In this document: positions 51,068 through 64,000 of the stretch, piece by piece
Layout: every line of letters starts with the position of its first letter
How positions within the stretch are numbered: position 1 is the stretch's first letter
NCBI GenBank assembly: GCA_945861065.1
Contig: CAMASI010000001.1
Coordinates: 62,001 to 126,000 of the forward strand
Direction: 5' to 3'
DNA: 64,000 bases
Origin: Klebsiella pneumoniae
GTDB taxonomy: Bacteria; Myxococcota_A; UBA796; GCA-2862545
Made by a program: the position numbers and the translations under genes
The notes under the pieces: model-generated
The model's database searches: none
Told to the model about the DNA's origin: nothing
What the model saw: the letters and a program-made list of their open reading frames with translations, nothing else

Positions 51068-52735
51068 TTGAAGTCCGACATCGAGATCGCCCGCGCCGCG
51101 AGCGCGCTGCCCATTTCCGCGGTCGGAGAGAAGCTCCGAATCCCAGCGGACGCACTTGTCCCTTACGGGCGGGACAAAGCGAAGCTGTCGCTCGACTACA
51201 TTGAGGGCCTTGGGAATCAACCTCAGGGCAAGCTGATCCTGGTCACTGCGATGACGCCGACGCCCGCGGGCGAAGGAAAAACGACCACAACGGTTGGCTT
51301 GGGCGACGCCCTCAACCGAATCGGCAAACGCGCGGTAATCTGCCTTCGAGAGCCGTCGCTCGGGCCTTGTTTCGGCATGAAGGGAGGCGCGGCAGGCGGG
51401 GGCTACGCTCAAGTCGTTCCGATGGAGGACATCAACCTTCATTTCACCGGCGATTTTCACGCAATCGGCGCGGCCCACAACCTGCTTGCCGCCATGCTGG
51501 ACAACCACATTTATTGGGGGAATGAACTCGGCATCGACGTGCGGCGAGTGGCCTACCGGCGTGTCGTGGACATGAACGACCGAGCGCTGCGACAGATCGT
51601 CGCCTCACTCGGCGGGACCAGCAATGGTTTCCCCCGCGAAACCGGGTTCGACATTACTGTAGCGAGCGAGGTCATGGCCATTTTCTGTTTGGCCACGAAC
51701 CGGGCGGACCTGGAGCGAAGGCTCGGAAATATCGTCGTCGGGGTCGGGAAAGGAAGGCGCCAGATCACCGCCCGCGACCTGGGCGCTTCGGGTGCGATGA
51801 CGGTCCTGCTTAAAGACGCCCTCATGCCCAATCTGGTTCAAACGTTGGAAAACAATCCCGCTTTTGTGCACGGTGGACCGTTTGCCAATATCGCACATGG
51901 CTGTAATACCGTGCTCGCCACCCAAACTGCGCTCCGCCTTGGCGAATACGTCGTCACGGAAGCGGGATTCGGCGCGGACCTCGGTGCGGAGAAGTTCTTC
52001 GACATCAAGTGCCGCAAGGCGGGCCTGCGCCCAGCGGCGGCCGTCATCGTAGCCACCATCCGTGCGCTAAAAATGCATGGCGGCGTGGCTCGGGACGCGC
52101 TCTCAACTGAAAACGTGAACGCTGTTCGCGCAGGCCTCGTCAACCTTGAGCGTCATATCCACAATGTCCGCCGGTTCGGCGTGCCCGTCGTTGTGGCAAT
52201 CAACCGTTTTACCAGCGACACGGACGCTGAACTCGCCGCGGTGACAGAGTTTTGTGCTGGTTTAGAGGTCAAAGCCATCGGCTGCACCCATTGGGCCGAC
52301 GGAAGCCTAGGCACCGTCGCCTTGGCACACGAGGTCGTTGCATTGGCTGAGTCCGGCGTGGCGGACTTCCGAACGCTGTACGACGACGCAATGCCGCTGT
52401 GGGAAAAAATAAACACAATTGCTCGTACCATTTATTGTGCGTCTCAAGTCACGGCCGAAAAGAGTGTCATGGAACAAATCGCGCACCTTCAGCTCACCTA
52501 TGGAACCTTGCCCATCTGCATGGCGAAAACCCAGTATTCGTTCTCGACCGATGCCAGTGCCGTAGGTGCGCCGATCGGTCATGTCATCCCCATTCGGGAA
52601 GTGAGGTTGTCTGCAGGCGCAGAGTTCCTCGTGGTCGTATGCGGCGAGATCATGACCATGCCCGGGCTTCCGAAGGTGCCCGCAGCGACGACCATTCGAC
52701 TCGATGAGAAGGGCGAGGTGACCGGGCTCTTTTAA
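51068..52735 (+). CDS. fhs: Formate-tetrahydrofolate ligase
   Basis: Makes 10-formyl-THF from formate, THF and ATP. The 555-residue protein has [16 protein letters not shown] (P-loop), [39 protein letters not shown] and the C-terminal [10 protein letters not shown]. The TTG at 51068 has GGAG (51058-51061) six bases upstream. It lies 8 kb from a formate dehydrogenase operon, so formate is a shared metabolite. Confidence 0.95.
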
Positions 52736-55930: not shown

Positions 55931-56269
55931 TCATCGCCGGGAAGTATGATAGCGTCTCTTGCTCGTTCGGATTACCGCGAGGGACGAAAGCGTTTGGATG
56001 AAATGGACGGTACGGGCCTCGCCGACCTCGGCCAGCCGAAGTCCGTGGTACATTCCAAGGATGCAGGACGGGAAGCGCGGGTCGCCTACAGTGTCCTCGT
56101 ACGCCGTGACGGAAGCGACATTCCCGTTCGGCGCGACCTCGAGTTCGAGCGTGATGTCTCCGTGCAGGCCGGGCTTGTATTGCCAAGCAAGACCTGCGCA
56201 CGCCTGGAACTTGGACCTCGATGCGTTGAGGACACGGAGATCGATCCCTTGCGCATGGCTTCGGGTCAT
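55931..56269 (-). CDS. Protein with AgmX/PglI-type C-terminal domain
   Basis: The conserved part reads LHGDITLELEVAPNGNVASV then FPSCILGMYHGLRLAEV, a good match to the TonB-like AgmX/PglI C-terminal domain found in Myxococcota motility and envelope proteins. The start is uncertain: ATG at 56269 gives 112 residues, ATG at 56392 gives 153. The N-terminal extension looks non-globular. It is divergent from the eutB remnant, whose missing 5' half would have occupied this location. Confidence 0.55.
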   Translation of the reverse strand: MTRSHAQGIDLRVLNASRSKFQACAGLAWQYKPGLHGDITLELEVAPNGNVASVTAYEDTVGDPRFPSCILGMYHGLRLAEVGEARTVHFIQTLSSLAVIRTSKRRYHTSRR

Positions 56270-56433
56270 GGCAACGAGTCCGGCCGCGGCCGCAATCCGG
56301 CCGTCGCGGGGCGTCGGCGCCTCGGCAGGCTCCTGACAGCCGTCCAGGGCCTTTCGCCCTGGCGGGCTATCGCCCGGGCGGCCCCGGCCCATTCGGGGCT
56401 CGTTGGCACGGGGCTCGGCCCCTCGGCTGTCCC

Positions 56434-57850
56434 ATGGACCTGATGTTCCAGTCCTTCGCCGGCTCACAGACGGCTAACGAGGCCTTCGGCATTTCGGTCG
56501 CACTCATGGACGAAGCGTGGGCCACGATGAAGGAACGGGGCACTGGGAAGGGCAAGAATTGCATGTATTTCGAGACGGGTCAGGGCTCGGCGCTGTCGTC
56601 GGACGCGCACCACGGCGCCGACCAGCTCACCCTCGAAGCGCGCTGCTATGGATTTGCGCGTCGCTACAAACCCTTTCTTGTGAATACCGTCGTGGGGTTC
56701 ATCGGTCCGGAATACCTCGAAGACGGCGCCCAGATCACGCGGGCTGCGCTCGAAGACCACTTCATGGGCAAGCTGCTCGGGCTGCCGACGGGCTGCGACG
56801 CCTGCTACACCTACCATTCACGGATGGGCCAAGACGAATTGGAAAACCTGAAGGTGCTGCTCGGCACCGCGGGTTGCAGCTACTTGATGTCATTGCCCGT
56901 CGGGGACGACATCATGCTCAACTATCAGTCGACCTCATTCCACGATGTCGCCACCGTTCGGGCCCTGGTGCGCAAGCGGCCCACGCCTGAATTTGATGCG
57001 TGGCTGAACGAAAAAGGAATCATGGACGGCGACCGGCCAGGAAAACGTTTCGGAGACCCGACCGTGATTGAGATCGGCGGGCACCGTTCGACGCCGGAGG
57101 GCATCGCGGCATCAGCAGCCCGGCACACCCCAGCGCGGCTCGGCGTGGGCCATGTGGGCTCACGATACCCGACGAACGTCTCGCTGCAATTTCAGACCGA
57201 TTTGGCGGTGGCGCACGACGCGGTGAGCACGGAGCTGCCTGACGATTGGGCGACAACGCACGGCTACCTCCCGCTTCGCTCTCGGGTGAGGGACGGTCGC
57301 GAATTCCTGCTTCGCCCCGATCTCGGTCGTCGGCTCGACGCCGCGTCCGTGGCCCACCTTCGGGCCGAGCCCGGTGCGGCGTGGACGTACAGCCCATCCT
57401 TGCCGACGGACTGTCAGCGGTGGCGTGCATGGGCGCCGGGCCCGAGCTTCTTGCCCGGTACATCGCCGCCTGCGAGGCCCGTGGCTGGACCGTTGGAACG
57501 CCGGTGTGCGCAAAATTCGCCCGCGTGTGGCTGGAGGACGAAATTGGCCAGGAGGTCGGGGCACGCGTAGCGGTGATTCTACTCGGGGAGCGCCCGGGCC
57601 TCGGCACCGGCGACGGGCTCTCGGCGTACCCCGTGCACGACCCAAAAATCGGCAACACGGATCGCCAACGGAACATGGTGAGCAACATCCACGTACGCGG
57701 CGTGCCGCCGGCTTTGGCCGCGGAACGCCTCGCCCTGCTGACGGGCGCCATGCTCGACCAGCGGCTGTCCGGCGTGGCGTTGGACCTGACTTCGCTGGCC
57801 GATCGACTCGGGGACGCGGGACGCGTCGAACCCAAGCCCCGCTGTCGCGG
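56434..57850 (+). pseudogene. Truncated, fused and frameshifted ethanolamine ammonia-lyase (eutB-eutC remnant)
   Basis: The frame begins abruptly inside EutB at DLMFQSFAGSQTAN and continues through YFETGQGSALS, VNTVVGFIGPEYL, GKLLGLPTGCDACYTYH and DDIMLNYQSTSFHD. The first half of EutB (about 240 residues, including much of the barrel) is missing. No stop separates the end of EutB (RFGDP) from EutC, which starts near TPARLGVGHVGSRYPTN and reaches RRPDLGRRLDAASVAHL-like sequence. Near 57380 the frame shifts and EutC resumes with ILADGLSAVACMG, ARVAVILLGERPGL and NMVSNIHVRG. A truncated, shifted gene cannot make active enzyme. Confidence 0.85.
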
Positions 57851-57902
57851 CCGCGCCTTGTGGAGAGCGAGGGCATGCGGCGCAGATCGTAGGACGCGCC
57901 AA

Positions 57903-58532
57903 CTACCAGTCGCCGGAACAGGGATCGCACACCACGCCGTCGAGCCCCCACGTGGCATCGGAATCACCCGCCAGGTCAAAGCCCGCCACGCCCTGGCCGA
58001 CAGTCAACCACCAATCACCGACGAGTTCGGACCCCGCTGCCGACCCGTCACCCCCGTCCACGACGAAATGCAGGCATTCCCACGACAGCGGCCCGGGGCA
58101 GGCCTCACGGTCCACATAGGTCGACGTCCACTCAGCATTGTCCGTCGTCGTGGACACGCCTGTTCCTTTTGCGGGAATGTCGACGTCGCATACCACCAGC
58201 GGGGGGTCCAGCATGACCCCCCCGAGCGGCGTCTCCACGGCGTGCACGAGGATTCCGTCCTGTACCGTGCTCGACCAGGAAATGGTCCTCACCCATTCCG
58301 CCGCGCCCCCCGGCATTGCGACCGAATCGAAATCAACGGCGTAGACGGCGCGGCCCTCATCGTCGAATGTCGCGTTCCCGTTCGTCGCCACCAGGTTGTC
58401 CGCGACAGGGTCCTGCACGTAAGACCAGGTTCTTGTGCCGCCGAAGGGCAGGTAGACGTAGACCTGCTCGGGATTCACAAATGCAGTCACCTGGGGCGTG
58501 CAGGCCAGCCACCACCACATCGTCCACCTCAC
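57903..58532 (-). CDS. Lipoprotein of unknown function
   Basis: A 209-residue lipoprotein. MRWTMWWWLAC gives ten residues before the lipobox Cys; a second ATG at 58520 would leave six. The mature part is beta-rich with several aromatic strands (VYVYLPFGGTRTWSYV) and Cys residues late in the chain (CPGPLSWEC, CDPCSGDW), suggesting disulfides. No family is recognised. It converges on the eut remnant. Confidence 0.6.
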   Translation of the reverse strand: MRWTMWWWLACTPQVTAFVNPEQVYVYLPFGGTRTWSYVQDPVADNLVATNGNATFDDEGRAVYAVDFDSVAMPGGAAEWVRTISWSSTVQDGILVHAVETPLGGVMLDPPLVVCDVDIPAKGTGVSTTTDNAEWTSTYVDREACPGPLSWECLHFVVDGGDGSAAGSELVGDWWLTVGQGVAGFDLAGDSDATWGLDGVVCDPCSGDW

Positions 58533-58673: not shown

Positions 58674-59567
58674 TCAAGGGCTCGACCTCGAAAGGCGGAA
58701 CCCCAGGTCGAAGTAGGAGTGGTCCGGGGAGCCGTTGCGGCGGCCGGAGACGGTCGCGTAGCGCGCGTCGTAGTACCAATCGCCGCCGCGAAGGACACGA
58801 TGGAAGCCTGACTCTGCGCCGATCGGGTCCGTCGCGCCACGCGACGGGTAGTCGTCGAACCAATCCTGCGTCCACTCCCACACGTTGCCGCTCATGTCGT
58901 AGAGGCCGCAGGCGTTCGGGGCGAGGCCCGCCACCGTGTTCGTGCTGGTGTTGCTGTTCTCGTCGGTCCACGCCACGTCGGTCGAGGTGTTCGAGCCCGC
59001 GTACTGAGTGTCGGTCCCGCAGCGCGCCGCGCCCTCCCACTCGGCCTCCGTCAAGAGCCGGTAGCCAATGCAGTCGTAGGGGTTCATGCCGACGGCGCAC
59101 TTGACGTCGGCGCCGAACCCGGTGCAGATGTAGCATGCCTGCAACCCCGCAGCGTCCGACACCGCGTTCGCGTAGGCCGCCGACTCGTACCAATTCACCC
59201 GCTCGACCGGGCAGTTGTCCGGGCCTAACCCGTCGCAGTCCGTGAAATACGACGGGTTGTACCCCATCACCGCCCGGAACTGGCCCTGCGTCACCTCGGT
59301 GACGCCAACGTAGTAGGCGTGGGTGCGCGTGACGCTGTGAACGCCGTACCCGTAGTCGGGCTGGCCCGGCGTGCTCCCCATGTCAAAGGTGCTGGCCGGG
59401 ATCTTCACGAAGCCTGCGTCGATGCCTAAATCCGTATCCTTGTCGGTGTCCGAATCAGCATCGCTGTCCGCGTCTGTGTCGGCATCGCCGGGGTTCGACG
59501 GGTCGTCGGCCGTTCCCGTGCAGGCGGGCAACGTCAAGGTGGCGAGGCCGAGAGTCAAGGGGATCAT
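58674..59567 (-). CDS. Lipoprotein with formylglycine-generating-enzyme (FGE-sulfatase) domain
   Basis: A 297-residue lipoprotein with the signal ending LTLPAC, an Asp/Thr/Ser-rich linker of about 25 residues, and then an FGE-sulfatase (SUMF1) fold: PASTFDMGS, VTEVTQGQFRAVMGYNPS, RLLTEAEWEGAAR, GNVWEWTQDW and RVLRGGDWYYD. Extra cysteines sit in the middle. Such lipid-anchored members are common in Myxococcota and most are not proven sulfatase activators; the domain may serve ligand binding. It is divergent from the formate dehydrogenase operon. Confidence 0.82.
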   Translation of the reverse strand: MIPLTLGLATLTLPACTGTADDPSNPGDADTDADSDADSDTDKDTDLGIDAGFVKIPASTFDMGSTPGQPDYGYGVHSVTRTHAYYVGVTEVTQGQFRAVMGYNPSYFTDCDGLGPDNCPVERVNWYESAAYANAVSDAAGLQACYICTGFGADVKCAVGMNPYDCIGYRLLTEAEWEGAARCGTDTQYAGSNTSTDVAWTDENSNTSTNTVAGLAPNACGLYDMSGNVWEWTQDWFDDYPSRGATDPIGAESGFHRVLRGGDWYYDARYATVSGRRNGSPDHSYFDLGFRLSRSSP

Positions 59568-59685
59568 GGGGGCTCCGGCGTGGTAAATGACGAACGCGGT
59601 GGCAATATCCCGGTGCGCCGGTTGGCGTGGGGCGCCAGCACAGGCCCGTGCCCGCTCGAGATAAGACCCCCGCATTGGAGGCCCA

Positions 59686-61587
59686 ATGGCTCGCAAGCCC
59701 CTCTCCCGCATGACCCATCCCTACGTTCGCGACGACGGCGTGCTCCGCCGCGCCACCTGGGACGAAGCCCTCGACCGCGCAGCCGATGGCCTCCGCCGAA
59801 CCATCACCCAACACGGTGGCCCCGCGGTCGGCATCTTCTCGTGCAGCAAAGCCACCAACGAAATGAACTACTTTGCCCAAAAGTTCATTCGCACCGCAAT
59901 CGGTTCCAACAACATCGATTCCTGTAATCGAACTTGACACGCGCCTAGCGTCGTCGGTCTGGCGACAGTTTTTGGGGCAGGCGGAGGAACTTCCTCCTAT
60001 CGTGACATCGAAGAGTCCGACGTCATCGTGTTGTGGGGAAGCAACGCCCGCGAGGCGCATCCCATCTTCTTCCACCACGTGCTCAAAGGCTTGCACAACG
60101 GCGCGAAACTCTTCGTCATCGACCCGAGACGCACCCCCACCGCGGATTGGGCAGACGCACACCTCCCGCTGCGCGTAGGAACCGACATCGAATTGGCCTT
60201 CGGCGTCGCCCGCGAAATCATTGCGGCGGGGCTCGTCAACACCGAGTTCGTCGAAAACGCCACCGAAGGATTCGAGGCGTTTCGCGAACACGTGTCACCT
60301 TGGACCCTTGAACGCACAGAAGCAGCCACCGGCGTTCCTGCGGCATTGATCCGGCGCCTGGCCCACGCCTACGGGGGCGCCAACAGGGCACAGATCTGTT
60401 GGACCTTGGGCATCACCGAACACCACAACGCGGTGGACAACGTGTTGTCCCTGATTCACCTCGGCTTGCTCACCGGGCACGTCGGTCGCACGGGCTCTGG
60501 ACTCAACCCCCTGCGCGGTCAGAACAACGTGCAAGGGGGCGGCGATATGGGCGCACTGCCCCACAAACTCCCGGGTTTCCAGGACCTGGAAGACGACGAA
60601 GCGCGTGGCCGCTACGAAGCCCTGTGGGGCTGCACGATTCCGCCGAAAAACGGTTGGCACCTCACACAGATGTTCGAGGCCATGGGTCGGGGGGAACTCC
60701 GCACCGTGCTTGTCATCGGCGAGAATCCTGCCCAGTCCGAGGCTGACGCCCTCCATGCGCGCAAACTGCTCGCGGGCCTCGACACCCTCATCGTCATGGA
60801 TTTGTTCATGACCATGACGGCGGAAATGGCCGACGTCGTGTTCCCCTCCGCCGCCGCGTGGGTGGAATGCGGTGGAACGGTCACGAACAGCGAACGCCGC
60901 GTGCAACGTTGTCGCAAGGCCTTGGACCCGCCAGGCGAGGCCAAAGACGACATTTGGATTCTGGCAGAGCTCAGCAAACGCCTCGGCCGCGACTGGGGCT
61001 ACCCCACACCGGAAGAGTTGTGGGACGAACTCCGATTGTTGTCCCCGATGCACCACGGCATGAGCCTCGAACGAATCGAGGCCAACGATGGCCTCCAGTG
61101 GCCCTGCCCGACCGACGACCACCCAGGCACCCCTTTCCTACATGGACGCCTGTGGGAACGCCCCGTACCGGGTCGCCTCGCCCCTTTCACCCTCGTGGTT
61201 CCGGATCCACCCGTGGACACCCTGACCGCCGACTTCCCCATCCGACTCACCACCGGCCGACGGCTCGACGCCTACAACACGGGCGTACAAACTCAGCAGT
61301 ACGCGAACCCGCTGCGGCGACGGGAGACGATCGACCTGTCCCCCATCGACTGTGACAGGCTCGGCGTCAGCGACGGCGACATCGTGGTCGTCACCAGCCG
61401 ACGTGCGTCGGTCAATGTGATGGCCCGCGCCGACAAGGGCCTTGTTCCCGGGCTCGCGTTCATGACCTGGCACGACCCCACCGAGGTCGACACGAACCTG
61501 CTCACGATCGAAGCCACCGACCCAAAATCTGGCACGGCCGAGTTCAAAGCGACAGCCATTCGGGTCGAGCGCGCAACCAGTTTGTAA
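59686..61587 (+). CDS. fdhA: Selenocysteine-containing formate dehydrogenase catalytic subunit (lacks N-terminal Fe-S domain)
   Basis: Molybdopterin enzyme oxidising formate. The in-frame TGA at 59935-59937 lies in CNRT-TGA-HAPS, exactly where formate dehydrogenases carry Sec or Cys. The frame stays open on both sides, giving 633 residues with Sec84. Flanking family blocks are GSNNIDSCNRT, GLATVFGAGGGTSSYRDIE and LWGSNAREAHPIFFHH. Later come GQNNVQGGGDMGALP, GENPAQSEAD, and the C-terminal molybdopterin-dinucleotide domain with LTTGRRLDAYNTG. The protein starts directly at the THPYVRDDG region, so the usual [4Fe-4S] CxxCxxxC domain is missing from this polypeptide. Translation requires SelB and Sec-tRNA, not seen in the window. 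Confidence 0.9.
59935..59966 (+). promoter_or_regulatory. Bacterial SECIS-like element directing UGA to selenocysteine
   Basis: The TGA is followed by 18 bases and then GGTCT (59956-59960). GTCGTC (59950-59955) pairs with GGCGAC (59961-59966), making a six-pair stem with one G:U that presents GGUCU as the apical loop. In E. coli fdhF the loop GGUCU also starts 18 bases after the UGA. SelB recognition by this organism's machinery is inferred. Confidence 0.85.
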
Positions 61588-61632: not shown

Positions 61633-63438
61633 ATGGACATTCACCTCCCCTCCGCAAAACCAACGCCCGACGAAGTCGAGGCGATCGTTTCCGTACTCGG
61701 CCCTGAACCCACGGACACGGGCCCTGCTGGGCTGTCGTCAGCGCAGGGTCAGCGTCATCTGCTACTCGAGGTTCTGCACGGGCTGCAGGCGCGAATCGGG
61801 TGGCTTTCCCCCGGCGGACTCGGCGAAGTCTGTCGTCGGCTCCATGTGCCTCCGGCCGACGCGTACGGCGTCGCCACGTTCTACTCACTGTTCTCCGTCA
61901 AGCCGCGCGCGAAAACCATCGTTCATGTCTGCGAAGACATCAGTTGCCAAGTGCGTGGTGCACCCGCGTTGATGGAGGCCTTGGCCACCCGCCTCGGACC
62001 CGCAGGCACGGAGCGTAACGGCGCCACCTGGATGCGGAGCCCCTGCCTCGGCTTGTGCGAGACGGCCCCAGCCGCGATGCTGACCGTGGCTGGCCGCGCG
62101 CCCGTCTGCGCCACCTGGGGTCGCGCCACGCTCGACCAACTCGTCGCCGCAACAGCGGGAATCGCGCCGCCACGAGGCCCACCGCCCGTCGCTCAGGATC
62201 CCGCCTCCTTGCGCCTGCTCCGCCGAGTGGCGGTCGATCCGACCCAGCTGCAGGCCTACCAACACGCTGGAGGCTACGCGGCCCTGTTCAAAGCCCTGGA
62301 CCTGGGACCCGCGGCGGTCATCGCGGAGGTGAGCGCCTCTGGCCTGATGGGTCGAGGTGGCGCGGCCTTTCCCACGGGGCGCAAGTGGGCTGCCGTGGCA
62401 GGACAGGCCGCCCAACCGCATTGGTTGGTGTGCAACGCAGACGAATCCGAGCCGGGCACCTTCAAAGACCGCGTGCTCATCGAAGCCGACCCCTTTGCCC
62501 TCGTGGAGTCCATGACCATTGCCGCGTTCGCTACGGGCTGCGCGATTGGAATCGTGTACCTGCGCGGAGAATATCCGTTGGCGCACGAGCGGCTATCCAA
62601 CGCCATCGCTCAGGCACGGGCCGCCGGATTGCTCGGGGAAAATATCCGTGGAACGGGCTTTTCTTTTGACTTGGATATCCGCAAGGGGGCCGGCGCCTAT
62701 ATTTGCGGAGAAGAAACGGCGCTTTTCAACTCGATCGAGGGCAAACGAGGCGAGCCGCGGAGTAAGCCGCCGTTTCCAGTCGAGGTGGGTTTGTTCGGGA
62801 AACCCACGCTCATCAATAACGTTGAAACGCTGTGCAACGTTCCGCTTATCTTATTGGAAGGCGCTGCCGCTTTTGCTGCGATTGGGACGAAAACGAGTAC
62901 TGGGACGCGGCTGTTTTGTCTGTCGGGCCACGTTCGGGCACCCGGCCTGTACGAAGTGCCGTTCGGAACCACACTGCGCGCGCTTTTGGACCTCGCAGGC
63001 GGCGTCGCGGAGGGGCGGTCGCTGCGCGCCGTGTTGCTCGGCGGGGCCGCCGGGACCTTCGTCGGACCCGGCGATCTCGACGTGCCCCTCACCTTCGAAG
63101 ACACCCGGCGCATCGGTGCGACGCTTGGCAGCGGCGTCGTCGTGGTGTTGGACGACCGCACCGCCCTTCTCCCGATTCTCCAACGGATCGCAGGATTTTT
63201 CCGAGACGAGTCTTGTGGCCAATGTGTGCCATGCCGGGTGGGCACAGTGCGACAGGAAGAACTACTCACCCGCGTGGCGTGCAAACGAACGCATGGGGGC
63301 GTCGCAGCGGAACAAGCGCTGTTTGCCGACCTCGACACTGTGATGCGCGACGCATCCATTTGTGGGCTCGGCCAGACCGCTTCGTCGGCCGTCGCCTCCG
63401 CCATGAAACGATTCCCCGATTTGTGGGAGGGCAACTGA
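61633..63438 (+). CDS. Fused NuoE-NuoF type diaphorase subunit of formate dehydrogenase
   Basis: NAD-reducing subunit of 601 residues. The N-terminal 150 residues are NuoE/FdsG-like, with 2Fe-2S cysteines in CEDISCQVRG and SPCLGLCETAPA. The rest is NuoF/FdsB-like: the FMN/NADH region GLMGRGGAAFPTGRKW, CNADESEPGTFKDR, GAGAYICGEETAL and the 4Fe-4S motif ESCGQCVPCRVG. The two are separate proteins in Nuo and in Fds-type enzymes; here they are one. It lies 45 bases after fdhA and overlaps the next gene (TGATG), so the enzyme is probably a soluble NAD+-linked complex. Confidence 0.92.
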   Translation: MDIHLPSAKPTPDEVEAIVSVLGPEPTDTGPAGLSSAQGQRHLLLEVLHGLQARIGWLSPGGLGEVCRRLHVPPADAYGVATFYSLFSVKPRAKTIVHVCEDISCQVRGAPALMEALATRLGPAGTERNGATWMRSPCLGLCETAPAAMLTVAGRAPVCATWGRATLDQLVAATAGIAPPRGPPPVAQDPASLRLLRRVAVDPTQLQAYQHAGGYAALFKALDLGPAAVIAEVSASGLMGRGGAAFPTGRKWAAVAGQAAQPHWLVCNADESEPGTFKDRVLIEADPFALVESMTIAAFATGCAIGIVYLRGEYPLAHERLSNAIAQARAAGLLGENIRGTGFSFDLDIRKGAGAYICGEETALFNSIEGKRGEPRSKPPFPVEVGLFGKPTLINNVETLCNVPLILLEGAAAFAAIGTKTSTGTRLFCLSGHVRAPGLYEVPFGTTLRALLDLAGGVAEGRSLRAVLLGGAAGTFVGPGDLDVPLTFEDTRRIGATLGSGVVVVLDDRTALLPILQRIAGFFRDESCGQCVPCRVGTVRQEELLTRVACKRTHGGVAAEQALFADLDTVMRDASICGLGQTASSAVASAMKRFPDLWEGN

Positions 63439-64000
63439 TGCGAACCTTGGCGCTTACCGTAAATGGCCAGCCCGTGGAGGTCCGGGAGGGCGCTACGCTG
63501 CTGGATGCGACGCGTAAGCTCGGAATCGACACGCCCACCTTGTGCTGGGGGCCAAACCTCACCCCCGTGAATGCGTGTCGCGTCTGCGTCGTGGAGCTCG
63601 AAGGTTCAAGGACCCTTGTGCCCGCCTGCGCGCGGAAAGCCGAAGCGGGAATGGTGGTGCAAACAGAATCGGAACGTGTGCACACCAGCCGTCGTCTGGT
63701 TCTTGAATTGCTCATGTCCTCCGTGGACACGTCCACCGCACCCACGTTGCAGGCGTATGCGGCTCGCTACGGCGCAGTCCCCGAGCGATTCGGCTGCGCC
63801 GGCGCACGGAGTCTGCCGGGCGAACGAGACGCGCGCACGCCCGGCCACCACCACATTTCTGACGGCGCCACGGCAGAGACGGTGCACCAGCCCACCAAAA
63901 TCGACAATGATTTGTACGTGCGCGACTATAGCAAATGTATTACCTGCTACAAATGCGTTGAGGCCTGTGGGACAGACGCGCAAAATACATTCGCCATCGC
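63438..64000 (+). CDS. 2Fe-2S/4Fe-4S iron-sulfur protein of formate dehydrogenase (3' end outside window)
   Basis: The ATG overlaps the stop of the NuoE-F fusion by one base. The visible 187 residues start with a 2Fe-2S ferredoxin domain (LCWGPNLTPVNACRVCVVE, then VPAC), as in the N-terminus of FdsA/NuoG. After a linker with HHH comes the first 4Fe-4S motif, CITCYKCVEAC, with FAI at the edge. This is the part missing from the upstream catalytic subunit, so it probably carries the electron-transfer clusters on a separate chain. Whether it also contains the missing cluster of the catalytic domain lies beyond the window. Confidence 0.85.
   Translation, partial: MRTLALTVNGQPVEVREGATLLDATRKLGIDTPTLCWGPNLTPVNACRVCVVELEGSRTLVPACARKAEAGMVVQTESERVHTSRRLVLELLMSSVDTSTAPTLQAYAARYGAVPERFGCAGARSLPGERDARTPGHHHISDGATAETVHQPTKIDNDLYVRDYSKCITCYKCVEACGTDAQNTFAI

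Follow-up and report, generated by a model that had tools for sequence, protein, structure and literature searches.

The question raised by this locus is whether an in-frame TGA ends a gene or is read as selenocysteine (Sec), and to which kind of enzyme the gene contributes. We analyzed the surrounding stretch of 64,000 nucleotides as a whole (hereafter the window), and the features of interest are collected in Table 1. Reading the TGA as Sec yields a single frame of 633 residues in which the TGA at codon 84 is the only one. Standard ORF calling returns an ORF of 83 residues (59686-59937) and a second one of 519 residues (60028-61587), which is the miscall into a short ORF and a truncated enzyme that the original prediction had expected from annotation pipelines. 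The residues around codon 84 (DSCNRT-U-HAPSVVGL) place the TGA at the position of the Mo ligand of formate dehydrogenases, in line with the earlier claim that it interrupts an otherwise continuous frame at the active site. Together with the genes downstream, we consider it highly probable that the locus combines Sec at codon 84 with a split, cytoplasmic, NAD-dependent Mo/W formate dehydrogenase encoded by three genes.

Table 1. Features of the formate dehydrogenase locus (window coordinates; C1 is the contig that contains the window).
Feature	Position	Strand	Basis or remark
GGAGG ribosome-binding site of the Mo-subunit gene	59677..59681	+	sequence reading, 4 nt before ATG
Formate dehydrogenase catalytic subunit (Mo/MGD, predicted Sec), matching the C-terminal part of FdsA-like alpha subunit	59686..61587	+	Pfam, TIGR01591, FdsA alignment
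In-frame TGA, codon 84, predicted selenocysteine	59935..59937	+	translation and orthologs
SECIS hairpin	59950..59966	+	stem 59950-59955/59961-59966, loop GGUCU 59956-59960
NuoE-NuoF fusion, FMN/NADH diaphorase subunit	61633..63438	+	Pfam 2Fe-2S_thioredx, Complex1_51K, SLBB, NADH_4Fe-4S
Fe-S module gene, N-terminal part of FdsA-like alpha subunit	63438..64000	+	continues to C1:126340 (window-equivalent 64340), 300 aa

The TGA is followed by a hairpin with a stem of six pairs, one of them U-G (GUCGUC against GGCGAC). Counted directly on the sequence, the GGUCU loop lies 18 nt behind the UGA, which agrees with the spacing and the six-pair stem initially proposed and with E. coli fdhF, where a hairpin with a GGUCU loop follows the UGA at an equal distance. 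A TGA followed after 16-20 nt by GGTCT and at least six pairs occurs once on both strands of the 64-kb window, and the chance expectation for this pattern is a mean of 0.02 (100 third-order Markov copies). Single-sequence folding gives the hairpin no support: the folding energy compared with shuffles was z 0.11 for 54 nt and z -0.17 for 38 nt, the minimum-energy fold of the 38-nt segment is a different, competing structure, and no bacterial SECIS model of Rfam matched at gathering or permissive thresholds. Thermodynamics alone is not significant; the case for the hairpin is built on comparative evidence.

This comparison covered 80 orthologs with 62-78% identity, which have either TGA (69 sequences) or a Cys codon, TGC or TGT (11 sequences), at codon 84. 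GGTCT is in place in all 69 TGA orthologs, which come from several phyla, and the loop glycine is encoded by GGT in 70/70 TGA genes with the window included (GGT has a share of 13% among the glycine codons there). The 11 Cys genes use GGG, GGC or GGA at this codon and GGT is gone. When codon bias was scored beyond amino-acid identity, the top eight of the 495 columns turned out to be codons 86, 89-94 and 97, all of them at or next to the hairpin. Furthermore, stem pairing is intact in all 192 cells of 32 chosen sequences, including compensatory double changes in two stem pairs (C-G to G-C in L040 and C-G to G-C in L068). The pairing and covariation score of the stem was unmatched by 500 shuffles and lower in slid controls, and RNAalifold recovers the same hairpin independently. 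The GGTCT loop is also found in fused Sec homologs with about 42% identity, one of which (L115) apparently shows this C-G to G-C swap too when inspected by eye. A pseudogene with a nonsense mutation, or a sequencing error for a TGC or TGT (Cys) codon, would make the TGA a true stop; Cys homologs exist, and a truncated, frame-broken eutBC locus nearby in the same MAG indicates that errors or decay occur. We nevertheless regard this explanation as very unlikely, because the same TGA is present in 69 independent orthologs, the hairpin is constrained at the codon level and both flanks of the TGA are intact; the conservation of the TGA across independent assemblies refutes it.

The four genes proposed for a check of the Sec reading, selA, selB, selC and selD, were all found in the draft genome (4.45 Mb, 147 contigs, 91% complete), among them selB and tRNA-Sec, whose absence had been named as the point that would count against it. 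The tRNA-Sec gene (selC, contig C12) scores 68.5 bits, above the Rfam cut-off, and has the anticodon tca; selB (C52) is above cut-off as well and contains an EF-Tu-like and two winged-helix domains; selA (C22) and selD (C3) were identified with E values of 3e-138 and 8e-109, respectively. The maturation gene fdhD is also present. As tRNA-Sec is common across the order (48 of 63 genomes), its presence is a prerequisite that counts for little as evidence, and its co-occurrence with TGA genes is uninformative. The selD gene is itself a selenoprotein gene with an in-frame TGA in the motif SAGUAAK (L021:1408-2661 on C3 of the genome G000, TGA at L021:1531). A search behind this TGA for an fdhF-like hairpin of four or more pairs found none, from which nothing is concluded, since the hairpins of selD genes may be of another form.

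Two other ways of reading the codon can be judged against the machinery and the orthologs. The frame would stay open with any residue at the TGA, so that Trp or another amino acid under a variant genetic code could be considered; however, the adjacent NuoEF gene uses TGA as its stop, which contradicts such a code, and the sole TGA of the gene falls on the Sec/Cys ligand in a genome with tRNA-Sec and SelB, which leaves this reading extremely improbable. Two functional pieces, a protein of 83 residues ending at the TGA and an ORF of 519 residues starting anew, are conceivable insofar as both ORFs exist mechanically. Such a cut would remove the metal-ligand residue together with its surroundings and leave the hairpin unexplained, and in the Cys orthologs this codon is TGC or TGT and the frame simply continues. 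In view of the conserved TGA, the Cys read-through orthologs and the Sec machinery, this reading was rejected and retains hardly any probability. Decoding of the codon-84 TGA as Sec is near certain from these sequence data, because the conservation of TGA and hairpin, the codon bias, the compensatory pairs, the loss of GGT in the Cys genes and the Sec machinery all point in this direction. This part of the result is ordinary, as the gene is a member of the known family FdhA, the most frequent bacterial selenoprotein family (103/285; PMC1794560). Automatic annotation will miss or truncate the Mo-subunit gene in genomes of this kind, and the Sec reading is a routine correction.

The domain content of the Sec-containing gene is less ordinary. 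It matches the Pfam families Molybdopterin (4e-69) and Molydop_binding (8e-23) and contains the Mo/MGD motifs U84-H85 and PLRGQNNVQG; the latter includes the RGQ motif, which is named in PMC8808070. The Molybdop_Fe4S4 domain is absent from this subunit according to Pfam. Its score for TIGR01591 (Fdh-alpha), 624.4 bits, is below the cut-off of 666.25 bits: the match starts at profile position 52, so that positions 1-51 are missing, and positions 1-49 are matched in the downstream Fe-S module gene at C1:126185-126331. This gene, whose ATG shares bases with the NuoEF stop codon (TGATG), encodes Fer2_4, Fer4 (two 4Fe-4S motifs) and Molybdop_Fe4S4 domains and aligns with residues 26-303 of R. capsulatus FdsA, and the Mo subunit aligns with residues 308-932; the two parts thus complete one FdsA with no overlap. 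Between them, in the same operon, the NuoE- and NuoF-like diaphorase is present as one fused gene. The original prediction of a whole formate dehydrogenase must therefore be narrowed: the Sec-containing part stands, but the gene encodes only the Mo/MGD part of the enzyme, with the Fe4S4 domain in a separate gene.

This arrangement is not peculiar to the window. The order Mo subunit, NuoEF fusion, Fe-S module is found in 74/74 of the orthologous loci in which the three genes are all in view, the Cys motif for Fe4S4 is present in 70/70 tested Fe-S modules, and none of the 80 Mo-subunit genes has an in-frame upstream Fe4S4 extension. In distant relatives from the same order, the Fe-S and Mo parts abut in one frame, preceded by NuoEF where this gene is in view. 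The order Mo-NuoEF-FeS is a circular permutation of this NuoEF-[FeS-Mo] layout, which suggests that it probably arose via tandem duplication with partial loss; the origin of the present layout would accordingly be a fission combined with a circular permutation. It could be argued that the Sec reading is correct and that the Mo subunit functions independently of the downstream genes, with an Fe4S4 cluster from elsewhere or with another partner, as it has no Fe4S4 domain of its own and the complex of three proteins is a prediction. We assume this to be unlikely, because 74/74 loci keep the three genes together and in one order and their domains sum to one complete FdsA-type enzyme without overlap. 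Synteny and domain complementarity rather suggest that the three proteins form one complex.

From these data a cytoplasmic, NAD-dependent formate dehydrogenase containing Mo or W is predicted as the product of the locus. SelB with Sec-tRNA(Sec) would recognize the hairpin just past the UGA and insert Sec at codon 84, where it would ligate the active-site Mo or W. Two polypeptides would make up the FdsA-type alpha subunit: the first gene would provide the Mo/MGD domain and the third gene the Fe-S relay with its Fe4S4 domain, which is normally found at the head of the Mo polypeptide, and the NuoEF-type FMN subunit encoded by the second gene would pass the electrons to NAD+.

Sec at the homologous Mo ligand is shared with E. 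coli formate dehydrogenase H (FdhF), which has its own N-terminal Fe4S4 domain and a hydrogenase as partner, not NAD. The fused Sec FdsA-like enzymes of the same order (L115-L123) resemble the window's enzyme in the TGA, the GGTCT loop and, at the identity given above, the Mo domain, but they carry Fe-S and Mo parts in one polypeptide, with NuoEF first where it is in view. With FdsABG(D) of R. capsulatus and C. necator (PDB 6tg9), the system has in common the 2Fe-2S/4Fe-4S relay, Fe4S4, Mo/MGD and the NuoE-/NuoF-like diaphorase; it differs in the distribution of the alpha subunit over two genes, the permuted order, the fusion of NuoE and NuoF and the use of Sec instead of Cys; a 2026 review classes the NAD-dependent enzymes of both species as Cys-Mo (PMC13397495). 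The alpha subunit of the Fds type is one chain with N-terminal Fe-S and Fe4S4 domains, whereas these domains are located here in a separate gene, so that the predicted enzyme would function as an Fds enzyme with another subunit layout. Methylobacterium extorquens FDH1 (PDB 7vw6, 7e5z) is similar in having Fe-S domains at the N terminus of its Mo/W alpha subunit and a single diaphorase beta subunit, which holds FMN, one 4Fe-4S and one 2Fe-2S cluster, but its alpha subunit is a single chain of 989 residues (PMC10869683), unlike the two-gene alpha subunit described here. The system is a variant of the NAD-dependent formate dehydrogenases, and its novelty is the split and permuted alpha subunit, not Sec. 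The literature searched contained no description of a split, permuted, Sec-containing NAD-type enzyme, which is a weak absence, as subscription papers lay mostly outside this search.

In a quick tree of 97 Mo domains, with the root placed on the fused sequences by assumption, a single change accounts for the split form, and a total of three are needed for the Sec/Cys label. The 11 Cys genes of the split form (L059, L060, L062, L063, L072, L073, L075, L076, L077, L080 and L093) belong to one actinobacterial clade, the Pseudonocardiaceae (Amycolatopsis, Saccharopolyspora), and form a single clade with a support of 100 nested inside the Sec genes, which indicates a single Sec-to-Cys switch within the split lineage sampled. 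The split layout is common to relatives from at least six bacterial phyla; the record titles, mostly of MAGs, name Actinomycetota, Acidobacteriota, Myxococcota or Pseudomonadota, Planctomycetota, Eiseniibacteriota and Dormiibacterota. Hence, we think it likely, with some reservation, that these genes represent a distinct lineage of NAD-linked Sec formate dehydrogenases of single origin that spread through at least six phyla, with the alpha subunit split between the Fe4S4 and Mo domains, a circularly permuted operon, the cluster beside the Mo centre on another polypeptide, and Cys in Pseudonocardiaceae. One record titled Klebsiella pneumoniae (L023) also encodes a split Sec formate dehydrogenase with 78% identity and clusters with the window's relatives; its organism name is likely wrong.

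The single Sec-to-Cys switch provides matched natural pairs to ask for the role of selenium in an NAD-linked enzyme. In addition, the split alpha subunit makes this a naturally bipartite form of an enzyme that is in demand for reducing CO2, and the split would allow testing if the Mo domain matures alone and then docks onto the Fe-S relay.

The genes upstream of the operon add some minor observations. A gene for formate-tetrahydrofolate ligase (51068-52735) precedes the formate dehydrogenase by about 7 kb and suggests a neighbourhood of one-carbon metabolism. The region 56230-58000 contains EutB/EutC fragments of ethanolamine ammonia-lyase and is a pseudogene or an assembly error, as the first half of EutB is missing and EutC runs on in another frame. 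Finally, a divergent gene at 58674-59711 encodes an FGE-sulfatase (formylglycine-generating-enzyme-like) domain, and the longest ORF of this gene overlaps with the 5' end of the Mo-subunit gene.
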